Shown here one piece after another: positions 12,546 through 21,360 of a stretch of DNA of 54,365 nt. The first letter of the stretch is position 1, and each line of letters begins with the position of its first letter. Origin of the DNA: Vineibacter terrae (lineage in GTDB: Bacteria > Pseudomonadota > Alphaproteobacteria > Reyranellales > Reyranellaceae); the NCBI RefSeq assembly GCF_008039615.1, contig NZ_VDUZ01000057.1, forward strand, positions 1-54,365, given 5' to 3'. The position numbers were made by a program, and so were the translations under genes. The notes below the pieces were generated by a model. That model saw nothing but the letters and a program-made list of their open reading frames with translations, was not told the origin of the DNA and searched no databases.

Positions 12546-12622
<77 letters not shown>

Positions 12623-14936: not shown

Positions 14937-15914
14937 CTACCTTCCTCTTCCCCAGAGCCCCGCAGCGGACCCAAGCGAGCCAATAGCGGAGGCAGTTCCC
15001 AAGATACCCGGGATGATGCCTAGAGACTGTGATGTCTTCGAGGACGAAGCCGTCCCCGGACCACCACCCCAACCGGAGAAGTTGAAATAGCGGTCAAGCA
15101 ACTCCCAGGGTCGTTGATCGCTCTCGGACCACTTCTGGGCCTGTTCATCCAACTGGCCTTGCGAGTCCTGCTGATAGGCATTCCCCGCCGTAGACTGCAT
15201 GTCGAAGCCAGCGCCGGCATTCGCCGCTGCACTACCGACCAGCGAAGACCCCAAAGACCCCGCGTTCCCGATGGCCGCATTGGCGCCCATCAGGTTATCG
15301 AAGCTCCTGTTGTACTGGTCCTGAGCCATCCCTAGGCCGCTCTGGAACGCTTGGCCTCGCATGGAGGCTCCAATATCCGCGACCCTATCCGCAGCACCAC
15401 GGCGCATGATCCCTTCAGCCACACCGGTACGGCTGCTGTAGGCGTTACCGCTGGCGCTGGCGCTGTCATTCAACTGCGGTAGGTCGTTCTCATTGAGATT
15501 GCGGACCACGTCTCGCGACGAGGCATCAACCATGCTGTCCATGTAGGGATTGGAAGCATATCGACCAGCGTTGTTGACGATGGCCTCAGTTGGGTCATTG
15601 CCAGCCATGCCATACAGCGCATTGGCATTGGCCCCAAAGCTCCCAGAGGCATTGAGGTTCGCAAGCCCCGGCGTAAGCCCCGCCATCCCCGCTGAAGTGA
15701 AGCTACCTCCCGCCCTGAACATATTGTCCAAGGTGGACTGCTGCATGGGGTTCAAGCTGGCGTAGGTCGAACCTTGGTAGCTCGGGGAACCCTTCTGGTC
15801 GTTGTACAGCCGCTGAGCCTCCGAGAACGTCTCGTTGATATAGGGCTTCTGTGGCCCGTAGACATCCGGATGACTCTCACTCTTCGACTTTGAAGAGCCG
15901 AATAAACTGCCCAT
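14937..15914 (-). CDS. Phage-type structural/ejection protein
   Basis: A 325-residue, Gly/Ala/Ser/Asn-rich protein. It opens MGSLFGSSKSKSESHP and has a 'LNPMQQSTLDNM' segment, 'YASNPYMDSMVDASSRDVVR', 'GNAYSSRTGVAEGIMRR' and long AQ-rich helices. This order ('P.QQ..', 'NPY...V', 'GA.GSSR.GVAEG') is that of a family of tailed-phage proteins annotated as structural or internal virion proteins. ATG 15914 is preferred over 15965 because AAAGG lies 10 nt upstream and the 'MG.LFGS' start is the family start. No other virion gene is present. The promoter-like repeat array lies directly upstream and points at this gene. Confidence 0.65.
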   Translation of the reverse strand: MGSLFGSSKSKSESHPDVYGPQKPYINETFSEAQRLYNDQKGSPSYQGSTYASLNPMQQSTLDNMFRAGGSFTSAGMAGLTPGLANLNASGSFGANANALYGMAGNDPTEAIVNNAGRYASNPYMDSMVDASSRDVVRNLNENDLPQLNDSASASGNAYSSRTGVAEGIMRRGAADRVADIGASMRGQAFQSGLGMAQDQYNRSFDNLMGANAAIGNAGSLGSSLVGSAAANAGAGFDMQSTAGNAYQQDSQGQLDEQAQKWSESDQRPWELLDRYFNFSGWGGGPGTASSSKTSQSLGIIPGILGTASAIGSLGSAAGLWGRGR

Positions 15915-16075
15915 TGGTTTTGGGCCTTTCTGTTGTTGTTGGGTTGACCCGGGCCGCACCCTCAACCTGAGTGCAGCCCGGGGATCGGAGAGAAGCCTAT
16001 CCGGTCTCTCCTGGGGTCAGAGGGCATCGCTTGAAGCTCTTAAGCCTCTGACTCCAGCAAAGGCCGGCATGGCCC

Positions 16076-16750
16076 CTCCTCTGGAATAGTGCGGATTAAA
16101 TCCCCACCCTCCCCTAGGCGAAGGGCCTCCTGGGATACGCCCGACCATAAGGCTTCCCCCTCCTCCGCTTCCTGGAATAGGGGGGAATAAATACCCCGCC
16201 CGACGCAAAGCCCCCCTGGCTTAGCCCTTGGGAGGGCTTGCCTGGAGAAGTGCTGATTAATTGAGGCCTCCCCTATAGGGGGATTAAATGGTCTCCGCCC
16301 TGGGCGCTTCCTGGGATAGTGCTGATTAATTGGGTCAGGCCCGGGCTTCCTCAGCCCCAGGCACCAATAGCCCTTCAGAGCCGTTTTCAGACTCATACAG
16401 AGGGTTTTGAGGCGTTTGGGTAGGTTGTGGCCCTCAGCCACTCCCTAGCGTCTGGCGAGTCCCTAAAGCCCTCCTGGGAGGGTCTAGTCCATTTGTCTTC
16501 TCCTCGAAGGGCCTGACCCTAAAAGATCGCATAATATATGCAAATTAATGACCCAAAGTCTCGCTCTGGAATATGAGGATTAAATCCCCTCAGCCTACCC
16601 CGGCTTTCATGCATAGTTAATGCATATACCTTGAAGGGGGCAATGCAGCCGTCTCGCCTGTAGACAGACGGCCCTCTGCGGGAGGCCGTCGCCTTCCTTT
16701 GCCTTCTCAACATGGCGCCGGACTCTGGAATAGCACGGATAAATACCTAA
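16076..16750 (-). promoter_or_regulatory. Array of 7-8 repeats resembling single-subunit (T7/SP6-type) RNA polymerase promoters
   Basis: On the minus strand, the pattern ATTTA-N5-CACTATT-CCAG recurs at 16081-16101, 16172-16192, 16242-16262, 16311-16331, 16566-16585 and 16725-16744. A variant ending CTATAGGGGAGG lies near 16269-16290 and a weaker copy at 16127-16146. Four copies have identical 21-nt length and two lack one base. Layout and spacing match SP6 (ATTTAGGTGACACTATAG) and T7 (TAATACGACTCACTATAG) promoters, except that most have CC where +1 G is expected. All face the phage-type gene and the ATPase. Alternatives are replication iterons or a transcription-factor array. The repeats are seen directly; their function is inferred. 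Confidence 0.55.
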
Positions 16751-16770
16751 CCGCGTGGCCTCCCCTGCCA

Positions 16771-16810
16771 TGTTACATTGACCTCATCGAACGTTGTTGT
16801 TAATGTAACA
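16771..16810. promoter_or_regulatory. Inverted repeat upstream of the serine recombinase (possible operator)
   Basis: TGTTACATT (16771-16779) and AATGTAACA (16802-16810) are perfect 9-bp inverted arms with 22 bp between them, ending 34 bp before the recombinase ATG. Position suggests an operator or a resolvase-binding subsite overlapping the promoter. Confidence 0.5.
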
Positions 16811-16844
16811 GTCACAACGACACCAATCCCAAGGGGACAGGGAC

Positions 16845-17522
16845 ATGGCTACCGGACGCTTCGTGGCCTACTACCGGGTCAGCACCGCGAGACAGGGACG
16901 CAGCGGCCTTGGCCTTGAGGCCCAAAGGGAAGCCGTGGGAGCATACCTCAACGGTGGCGACTGGAAGCTCATTGCGGAAGTCACTGAGATTGAGTCTGGC
17001 AAGCGGAGCGACCGCCCTGAGCTTGCCCGGGCTCTCGCCCTGTGCCGTGTCCGCAACGCCACTCTAGTCATTGCCAAGCTAGACCGCTTGTCTCGCAACC
17101 TCGCCTTCATCGCGAACTTGATGGAGAGCGGAGTTGAGTTCGTTGCGGTAGACCTTCCCGTCGTGAACAAGCTCACGCTCCATATCCTCGCAGCCGTCGC
17201 TGAGAGCGAGAGAGAGGCTATCTCTCAGAGGACCAAGGTGGCTCTAGCCCGCGCCAAGGCTCGTGGTGTGGTCCTGGGCGGGGACAGAGGCAATCTCCCC
17301 AAGGTCGCCAAGAAGGGCTCCAAGGCCAGCGCAGCAGCCCGCAGCGATGCCGCCGCGAAGCGAGCGAAGGACCTACAGGAAATCATCACTGATCTACGCC
17401 GCGAAGGCGCATCCTCCCTACGCCAGATAGCAGCCGGGTTGACGGAGCGGGAAATCTCCCCGCCGCGTGGTGGTGCGTGGTCAGCGACGCAGGTTGCAAG
17501 GGTGCTGAGGCAGGCAGCGTAA
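16845..17522 (+). CDS. Serine recombinase (resolvase/invertase family)
   Basis: A 225-residue small serine recombinase. The catalytic serine is S13 in AYYRVSTARQG; conserved SGLGLEAQ, KRSDRPELARAL and AKLDRLSRN motifs follow, then the long E-helix (LHILAAVAESEREAISQRTK). The C-terminal part (about 150-225) is Lys/Ala-rich and ends in a helix-turn-helix-like region (SLRQIAAGLTEREISPPRGG). It could resolve multimers, invert DNA in the element or act in excision. An AAGGGGACAGGG purine run precedes ATG 16845. It reads towards the right copy of the inverted repeat. The coexistence with a tyrosine integrase is notable. Confidence 0.9.
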   Translation: MATGRFVAYYRVSTARQGRSGLGLEAQREAVGAYLNGGDWKLIAEVTEIESGKRSDRPELARALALCRVRNATLVIAKLDRLSRNLAFIANLMESGVEFVAVDLPVVNKLTLHILAAVAESEREAISQRTKVALARAKARGVVLGGDRGNLPKVAKKGSKASAAARSDAAAKRAKDLQEIITDLRREGASSLRQIAAGLTEREISPPRGGAWSATQVARVLRQAA

Positions 17523-18538: not shown

Positions 18539-19837
18539 ATGCCCAAGACGCCGTACACCTTCAACTCCAGAGTGAACATCACTGAGCTAAAAGAGCTAGT
18601 GGTTCAGATGCTCGAAGTTATGGGGAGAGGGCCTGATGGCCGCGGCATTGCGCCGATACGAGCGGACTTCTTCTTTCAAGACCGCTTGGCATTCGTGAAC
18701 GACGGCATCGACATTCCGGGTTCCTTAACGTCAAAGGAGAAGCGCCATCTTATCTTCAAGGCATTCTGCGACGCTAAAGGGGAAGGAGCCAGTTCATACG
18801 AGGGGTTTAGCCGTACGCTGGGCTCTGTCATCCAAGCTCGACTGGGCCTCCCGCAAAGCCGCTTCTATCTGACCACATCAGTCTCTCTAGACCGGTCAAA
18901 GCTTCAAGCGAACCTTCGCTTTTCCCATGCAGGCGTTCGGATGCAAATCAGTCGAGCTTATCCGCGGCGCCTAAAGCCCTTCAACAGGCCATCACGAAGA
19001 GGCGACGAAGAACCCGCCAGTTCAATCCCACCGCTAGGGTACAGCCATTTGACAGCGACAGTTCAGGCCCAGACCTTGGCGTCCGCGGCTGACCATATAT
19101 TCCCCGCACTTGACCTATGGATGGGCATTCTTAACCACGCGTTTCCCGATGGACGCATCGCCTGGGTCTATCCCCCTCAGCCGGTCAACCGGCTTCGACT
19201 TGGGAAGTGGCACATCTTCTATGACGATGCGGGCAACCCTCGTGAAGATCATCCTTGGTATGACCCCGAATACCAGCGCGTCAACAACTTGCAAGAATTC
19301 CCGGCGGCCGAAAGCCCGTTTTGGAAGCGCTATAGGCGGGCCGTTGGGTTCATCAGACGTAGGAGCGACCTTGGGACGCTAATGATTTCCTACTTCCGCA
19401 ACATGTACGACGCCGGCAGTTTGCGGGACCCGCACCTACGCCTGTTGCGGCACTGGGGAGTCCTCGAAACGCTGCTTGCGCTGCCTGACAAAAACACGAC
19501 GACGGATAAAATAGTCGAGCGGGCGTCATTCACGTCGGCCCAGCCACAGTATCGTAAAAAGCGCCTCAAGATCATCGGTGAAGTAAGAAACCGTTTTGTT
19601 CATCGAGCCATAAGGGACGATGACCCCTTAAACTTCGATGAAGACCTCCGCGACTACCTTCGTGGTCTGGCAGGCTATTTCATATCCGGGAAGCACGGCT
19701 GTCGGACGCACGCAGAACTGTTGAAGCTGCTCGACATGAGTTGGGACCGGAAGGCTCTGCGGGAGCATGCGCGTCACACCAAGATTGCTATGCTGATGCG
19801 GGCAGGCGGCGACCCAAAACCTAAGAAGGGAGAGTAG
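18539..19837 (+). CDS. Large protein with HEPN-type R-x4-H motif; candidate defence cargo
   Basis: A 432-residue soluble protein. Its C-terminal part has HWGVLETLLALPD (305-317), a Lys/Arg-rich helix, and RNRFVH (R350-H355) inside IIGEVRNRFVHRAI. R-x4-6-H in such a helix, preceded by a 'W..LE.LL' helix, is the layout of ApeA-like HEPN domains, which are RNA-cleaving or nucleotidylated modules common in anti-phage systems. The N-terminal 280 residues match nothing that I recognise. The gene starts 28 bp after lipoprotein B and its end overlaps the convergent integrase by 17 bp, the usual cargo position next to an integrase. HEPN assignment is moderate; the defence role is inference. Confidence 0.6.
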   Translation: MPKTPYTFNSRVNITELKELVVQMLEVMGRGPDGRGIAPIRADFFFQDRLAFVNDGIDIPGSLTSKEKRHLIFKAFCDAKGEGASSYEGFSRTLGSVIQARLGLPQSRFYLTTSVSLDRSKLQANLRFSHAGVRMQISRAYPRRLKPFNRPSRRGDEEPASSIPPLGYSHLTATVQAQTLASAADHIFPALDLWMGILNHAFPDGRIAWVYPPQPVNRLRLGKWHIFYDDAGNPREDHPWYDPEYQRVNNLQEFPAAESPFWKRYRRAVGFIRRRSDLGTLMISYFRNMYDAGSLRDPHLRLLRHWGVLETLLALPDKNTTTDKIVERASFTSAQPQYRKKRLKIIGEVRNRFVHRAIRDDDPLNFDEDLRDYLRGLAGYFISGKHGCRTHAELLKLLDMSWDRKALREHARHTKIAMLMRAGGDPKPKKGE

Positions 19838-21343: not shown

Positions 21344-21360
21344 TCCTCTCGGGGACGCCA
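21344..21360 (+). repeat. attR core
   Basis: TCCTCTCGGGGACGCCA, identical to the tRNA 3' end at 12606-12622. It marks the right boundary of the element; chromosomal DNA resumes at 21361. Confidence 0.9.

Follow-up and report, generated by a model that had tools for sequence, protein, structure and literature searches.

A one-directional array of 22-bp repeats beside a phage DNA-ejection gene in a small integrated element of Vineibacter terrae

At the origins of T7-type phages a promoter together with an AT-rich stretch primes replication, and for repressor sites that act in one direction the one-way stoperators of mycobacteriophage L5 offer the comparison. Iterons of 17–22 bp, bound by winged-helix Rep proteins and lying next to an AT-rich region, are well known, as described in PMC4980987. 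How virulent helper phages switch on phage satellites is an open question, asked outright in the PICMI paper (PMC10803314).

Here we analyse a repeat array in a stretch of 54,365 nucleotides from Vineibacter terrae (contig NZ_VDUZ01000057.1), referred to as the window. A preliminary description had reported a one-strand array of promoter-like motifs inside an integrated element, pointing towards a phage-type gene and an ATPase gene. The array is real, one-directional and unusual: its six minus-strand copies lie within an element bounded by an att repeat and point as described.

The element and its genes

The integrated element measures 8755 bp (~8.75 kb), is sited in a tRNA-Arg(CCT) gene and is bounded by a 17-bp direct repeat (Table 1). 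Like phage satellites, it has an integrase and att sites. The ejection protein matches the profile phrog_4287 over nearly its full length (residues 21–339), and its frame reaches 15965 if extended to GTG or TTG starts. The ATPase, a relative of the RSF1010 RepA helicase, has a weak winged-helix match at residues 295–331, under the Pfam cut-off. The element also holds two small ORFs and a 432-aa protein (18539–19837) that had no match in Pfam, PHROG, NCBIfam or PADLOC; its one relative, 22% identical, lies on a Shewanella plasmid.

Scans of ten proteins of the window with Pfam and PHROG turned up no AlpA-like regulator or primase, and the element has no recognised gene for a capsid, portal or terminase. 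The whole element had no match to plasmids by DNA similarity, and the ejection protein was present in none of the 74 other genomes of the host's family. We regard this small, tRNA-integrated element as probably satellite-like.

Table 1. Positions of the repeat copies, att sites and genes in the window.
Feature	Position	Strand	Basis
Left att copy, 17 bp, 3' end of tRNA-Arg(CCT) gene (12546–12622)	12606–12622	+	tRNA prediction and direct repeat
RepA-like AAA_25 ATPase, 358 aa	13219–14295	-	Pfam; RSF1010 RepA 1g8y, E 0.0016
Phage DNA-ejection protein, 327-aa frame	14937–15920	-	phrog_4287, E 6.6e-33, and relatives
Repeat copy 1, GATTTAATCCGCACTATTCCAG	16081–16102	-	matrix scan
Repeat copy 2, TATTTATTCCCCCCTATTCCAG	16172–16193	-	matrix scan
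Repeat copy 3, CAATTAATCAGCACTTCTCCAG	16242–16263	-	matrix scan
Doubtful copy, CATTTAATCCCCCTATAGGGG, near background	16270–16290	-	matrix scan
Repeat copy 4, CAATTAATCAGCACTATCCCAG	16311–16332	-	matrix scan
Repeat copy 5, GATTTAATCCTCATATTCCAG, spacer 1 nt shorter	16566–16586	-	matrix scan
Repeat copy 6, GTATTTATCCGTGCTATTCCAG	16725–16746	-	matrix scan
Serine recombinase, 225 aa	16845–17522	+	Pfam Resolvase, E 1.5e-27
Tyrosine integrase, 474 aa	19821–21245	-	Pfam Phage_integrase, E 2.7e-13
Right att copy, identical 17 bp	21344–21360	+	direct repeat

The repeat array and its occurrence elsewhere

Six good copies of about 22 bp, all on the minus strand and directed at the ejection gene and the RepA-like ATPase gene, are spread over 665 bp (16081–16746) of the 879-bp intergenic region between the ejection and recombinase genes. 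Scored with a two-block matrix that was built from the array copies themselves, they reach 26.8–32.0, and no place in the window beyond the array exceeds 12.5. When the five equal-length copies were left out in turn, they still scored 18.2–30.0, compared to 12.0–14.2 at the best place outside the array. The intergenic region contains six members of one 21-mer (up to six mismatches), whereas 300 dinucleotide shuffles gave four at most.

While these six copies were already recognised in the preliminary description, the two weaker ones listed with them did not hold up. The candidate at 16270–16290 scores 13.0, scarcely over the highest chance score elsewhere in the window, and that near 16128 is visible only as a shared 13-mer, scoring below 9 in the matrix scan. 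The consensus proposed then, ATTTA-N5-CACTATT-CCAG, is exact in only one of the six copies, although its CCAG is invariant. The better-conserved blocks are TTNATC and CCAG; CCAG is the only fully conserved one, and conservation is lowest in the CACTA block (0.96 bits). Spacings between copies are irregular (91, 70, 69, 255 and 159 bp) and without helical phase (p = 0.74). Among all 45-mers of the element, those with the lowest GC content (0.33) fall in an AT-rich patch (16513–16576) that adjoins copy 5 on its transcription-downstream side.

A coding repeat was rejected: in the translation of the long minus-strand ORF at 16040–16441, the copies do not share a reading frame. No sigma-70 promoters were found, and the only hits to known RNA families were the tRNA and, at 15987–16082, a miRNA match that stayed below threshold. 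GC-rich inverted repeats lie directly before the ejection gene (15948–16078), and five terminator-like sites, compared to 1.1 expected, were counted in 15900–16900. The 840-nt leader folds better as RNA than its shuffles (z = -3.55, 20 shuffles).

The array is specific to this place. A pattern taken from it, TTWATCNGCACTATYCCAG, which does not catch the copies at 16172 and 16566, had four matches with up to two mismatches in the host's own genome (8.76 Mb), all in the array, compared to none for the reversed-pattern control. In 75 other genomes of the order there were three pattern matches and five control matches. Across the 385 class genomes, 81 scattered matches outside the own genome compare with 44 for the control (a manual table count); matches occurred in 68 genomes including the own genome, and none of the 67 others had two within 1 kb. 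Three motif patterns gave 20, 10 and 42 stretches in the viral contigs, single matches each, with further strong copies in none, and the array DNA gave one chance-level fragment each against phages and against plasmids. The motif as a set was found in no other viral contig, phage record, plasmid or genome searched. A literature search found nothing on an array of this kind. The string GATTTAATCAGCACTATCGGGG, common to five viral contigs, was rejected as a relative of the motif, being the loop of one identical hairpin. In these contigs, L069, L080, L085, L097 and L102, it is a GC hairpin, the loop of which contains ATTTAATCAGCACTAT.

A sister element was found beside tRNA-Glu in a genome of the same genus (G072; L128 4546–14833). 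Its recombinase, integrase and truncated ATPase are 81%, 53% and 59% identical to those of the window element, the ejection gene was not detected in it, and its cargo includes genes resembling type I restriction-modification. It keeps one repeat copy on the minus strand (L128 9053–9079), at the corresponding place upstream of the ATPase remnant. None of 500 shuffles scored as high, and among 109 loci (1.15 Mb) that had not been chosen by motif this copy scored highest (17.8, compared to 16.9 for the next unrelated locus). As a single copy is kept and the ATPase is truncated, both array and ATPase are decayed in the sister. The sister copy links the putative site with the element's ATPase/recombinase core. 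Since it keeps CCAGGAAGC rather than CACTAT, it also suggests that CCAG matters more than CACTA.

In a third relative, from the same family (G067; L171 7798–17790, near tRNA-Arg(CCT); integrase 39% and recombinase 72% identical), no array was seen; its best motif match was rejected because it is not at the corresponding place. This locus encodes a 1165-aa protein that, named by eye, resembles a restriction-modification or BREX-type methylase.

The position of the array just upstream of the recombinase gene would fit a res-like recombination site for that enzyme. However, the copies are asymmetric, and the upstream regions of other recombinase relatives, including one sister, have no array: in 36 such regions (three cut short) the same test found at most three loose copies, compared to five here. 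We consider a res-like site very improbable. Among relatives of the ATPase, one of 17 tested has a clear nearby array, a perfect 12-bp direct repeat of 9.2 copies that lies upstream of the best full-length relative outside the genus (class genome G362; L129 2916–3025). Four further flanks of 31 hold three loose copies each, which no shuffle of 20 equalled; we take these as chance.

Possible promoters for a helper-phage polymerase

The main rival to the reading we favour (below) takes the copies for promoters, or decoys, recognised by a single-subunit RNA polymerase that a T7-like helper phage would supply. At infection this enzyme would switch on the ejection and ATPase genes and perhaps prime replication. 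We consider this unlikely, but a live minority reading.

The T7/SP6-like character claimed in the preliminary description survives as a modest resemblance to T3 and SP6 promoters. A matrix of five copies fitted T3 best of four consensuses (10.8 of 18; column-permutation p = 0.009), and the SP6 and prophage G386 consensuses were also best in the same register as T3; those of T3 and T7 came from record annotation, while those of SP6 and the prophage were picked by similarity. The AT-rich patch just downstream of copy 5, in the direction of transcription, is also as expected, and the annotated T3 origin begins 17 bp after a T3 promoter, with a GC content of 0.23.

In contrast, the core of the motif does not behave as in these phages. 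CACTA is exact in two of six copies, compared to 30 of 31 annotated T3 and T7 promoters (14/14 in T3, 16/17 in T7); the SP6 set had been selected for CACTA and was therefore left out of this comparison. That the +1 G is missing in most copies, as first noted, proved true of all six: positions +1 and +2 are CC throughout, a pair that never occurs in the T3, T7 or SP6 sets, and +1 in T3 and T7 promoters is G or A. The shorter spacer of copy 5 and the block kept by the sister copy in place of CACTAT also count against promoters.

No such polymerase was found, in line with the earlier statement that the element carries none: PF00940 had no match in the own genome, where the controls of that search were also silent, while the same model found polymerases in three of the 385 genomes of the class, of which one has only a partial gene. 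That partial single-subunit RNA polymerase gene lies close to the end of a contig, in a member of the host's family (L036 2063–3274; G067 C2). In class genome G386, the region L038 12812–18841 and beyond encodes a T7-like RNA polymerase, and a promoter-like motif, [AC]ATTAGGTTCCCCTWTAG, occurs there at least five times.

A link to T7-like phages, also proposed earlier, is borne out for the ejection protein and not for the motif. A profile search of the viral contigs gave 16 loci with relatives of this protein; with two phage records added, 18 records were tested for the polymerase. It was present in three, exactly those with the best ejection relatives (33–37% identity). The other 15, many of which are fragments, show no polymerase, which weighs against the promoter reading. 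Only two of 385 class genomes have ejection-protein relatives, the own genome and G289, and in the latter polymerase and ejection relative lie ~17 kb apart in a prophage region. In a tree of the ejection protein, where the deciding branches are weak, the nearest rows by path are L176, L004 and L177, the first and last of them polymerase-bearing. Together, the three best relatives, G289 and this tree placement make it probable that the ejection gene was acquired from polymerase-bearing phages or is common to them and the element. However, among the phages searched none has the motif as a set, nor have the related polymerase-bearing contigs and prophages, which hold other repeated motifs instead. 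In related elements the repeat was found once, in the sister element. Its presence at origins of unrelated elements, which the preliminary description would have held against promoters, was not encountered.

In its fullest form, to which we give little credence, the promoter reading makes the array a sensor. An integrated satellite without a polymerase of its own would offer six divergent sites to the single-subunit enzyme of a T7-like helper that is as yet uncharacterised. On infection this enzyme would turn on the satellite's ejection and ATPase genes, and replication would be primed at the AT-rich patch; at the same time the array would titrate the polymerase of the helper. A polymerase that starts at CC would be an unusual one. 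If the array does answer to a helper's polymerase, it would directly answer how virulent helpers switch on satellites.

A possible origin or control region of the element

We favour, over promoters for a helper polymerase, the reading of the array as directional sites for predicted protein binding in the element's origin/control region; we hold it tentatively, at rather less than an even chance, and no reading is close to proven. An element-encoded protein, either the RepA-like ATPase or an unrecognised initiator, would bind the repeat sites. It would then open the AT-rich patch and act on the adjacent minus-strand genes, which could couple the element's replication after excision to the expression of its ATPase and ejection genes.

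Several results argue for this. The array is confined to this place, its sites are non-coding, and it includes the lowest-GC 45-mers. The adjacent ATPase is a relative of the RSF1010 RepA helicase with a sub-threshold winged-helix match. CCAG, and not the phage-promoter core, is fully conserved, and one site is kept in the sister element. The ATPase relative of G362 also has a direct repeat upstream.

Against it we count the irregular, unphased spacing over 665 bp, the lack of a recognised initiator, the single clear array among the 17 ATPase relatives, and the recombinase-relative upstream regions without an array. No DnaA box was found in the window, nor one with a single mismatch in the element. 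Of the features of an iteron origin, several direct repeats of 17–22 bp in one orientation and an adjacent AT-rich region are present, but regular helically phased spacing is not, which argues against a textbook iteron origin. The origin/control reading also leaves the resemblance to T3 and SP6 promoters unexplained.

Asymmetric same-strand copies with irregular, non-helical spacing, upstream of co-oriented genes, suit dispersed operators no less well than iterons. A repressor bound to them could keep the ejection and ATPase genes silent while the element is integrated. However, no repressor gene was recognised among the ten window proteins scanned, and no copy elsewhere in the element scores near the array; we judge repressor sites less probable still than promoters. 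The folding of the leader is predicted by neither the origin nor the promoter reading.

Compared with known systems, the array shares with T3 and SP6 single-subunit polymerase promoters an AT-rich left block and a CACTAT-like block, which in some copies stand at the same spacing as in those promoters. It differs in that its core is not invariant, its start is CC instead of G or A, one spacer is altered and no cognate polymerase is known. With iteron origins, as described for plasmids and for satellites such as PLE (PMC4980987, PMC7145576), it shares non-coding direct repeats of ~22 bp in one orientation, with an AT-rich patch and the gene of a replication ATPase nearby; unlike them, it is unphased and irregular, with no identified initiator or DnaA box.

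The element itself, like the phage satellites P4, PICI, PLE and PICMI, is a small integrase-bearing element in a tRNA gene that has a replication ATPase and no recognised capsid, portal or terminase gene. It has no recognised AlpA or primase, and it differs from these satellites in carrying a DNA-ejection protein. Even if the array is an origin/control region, the element is odd: a small integrative element whose one DNA-ejection protein belongs to a lineage that occurs in phages with the polymerase.
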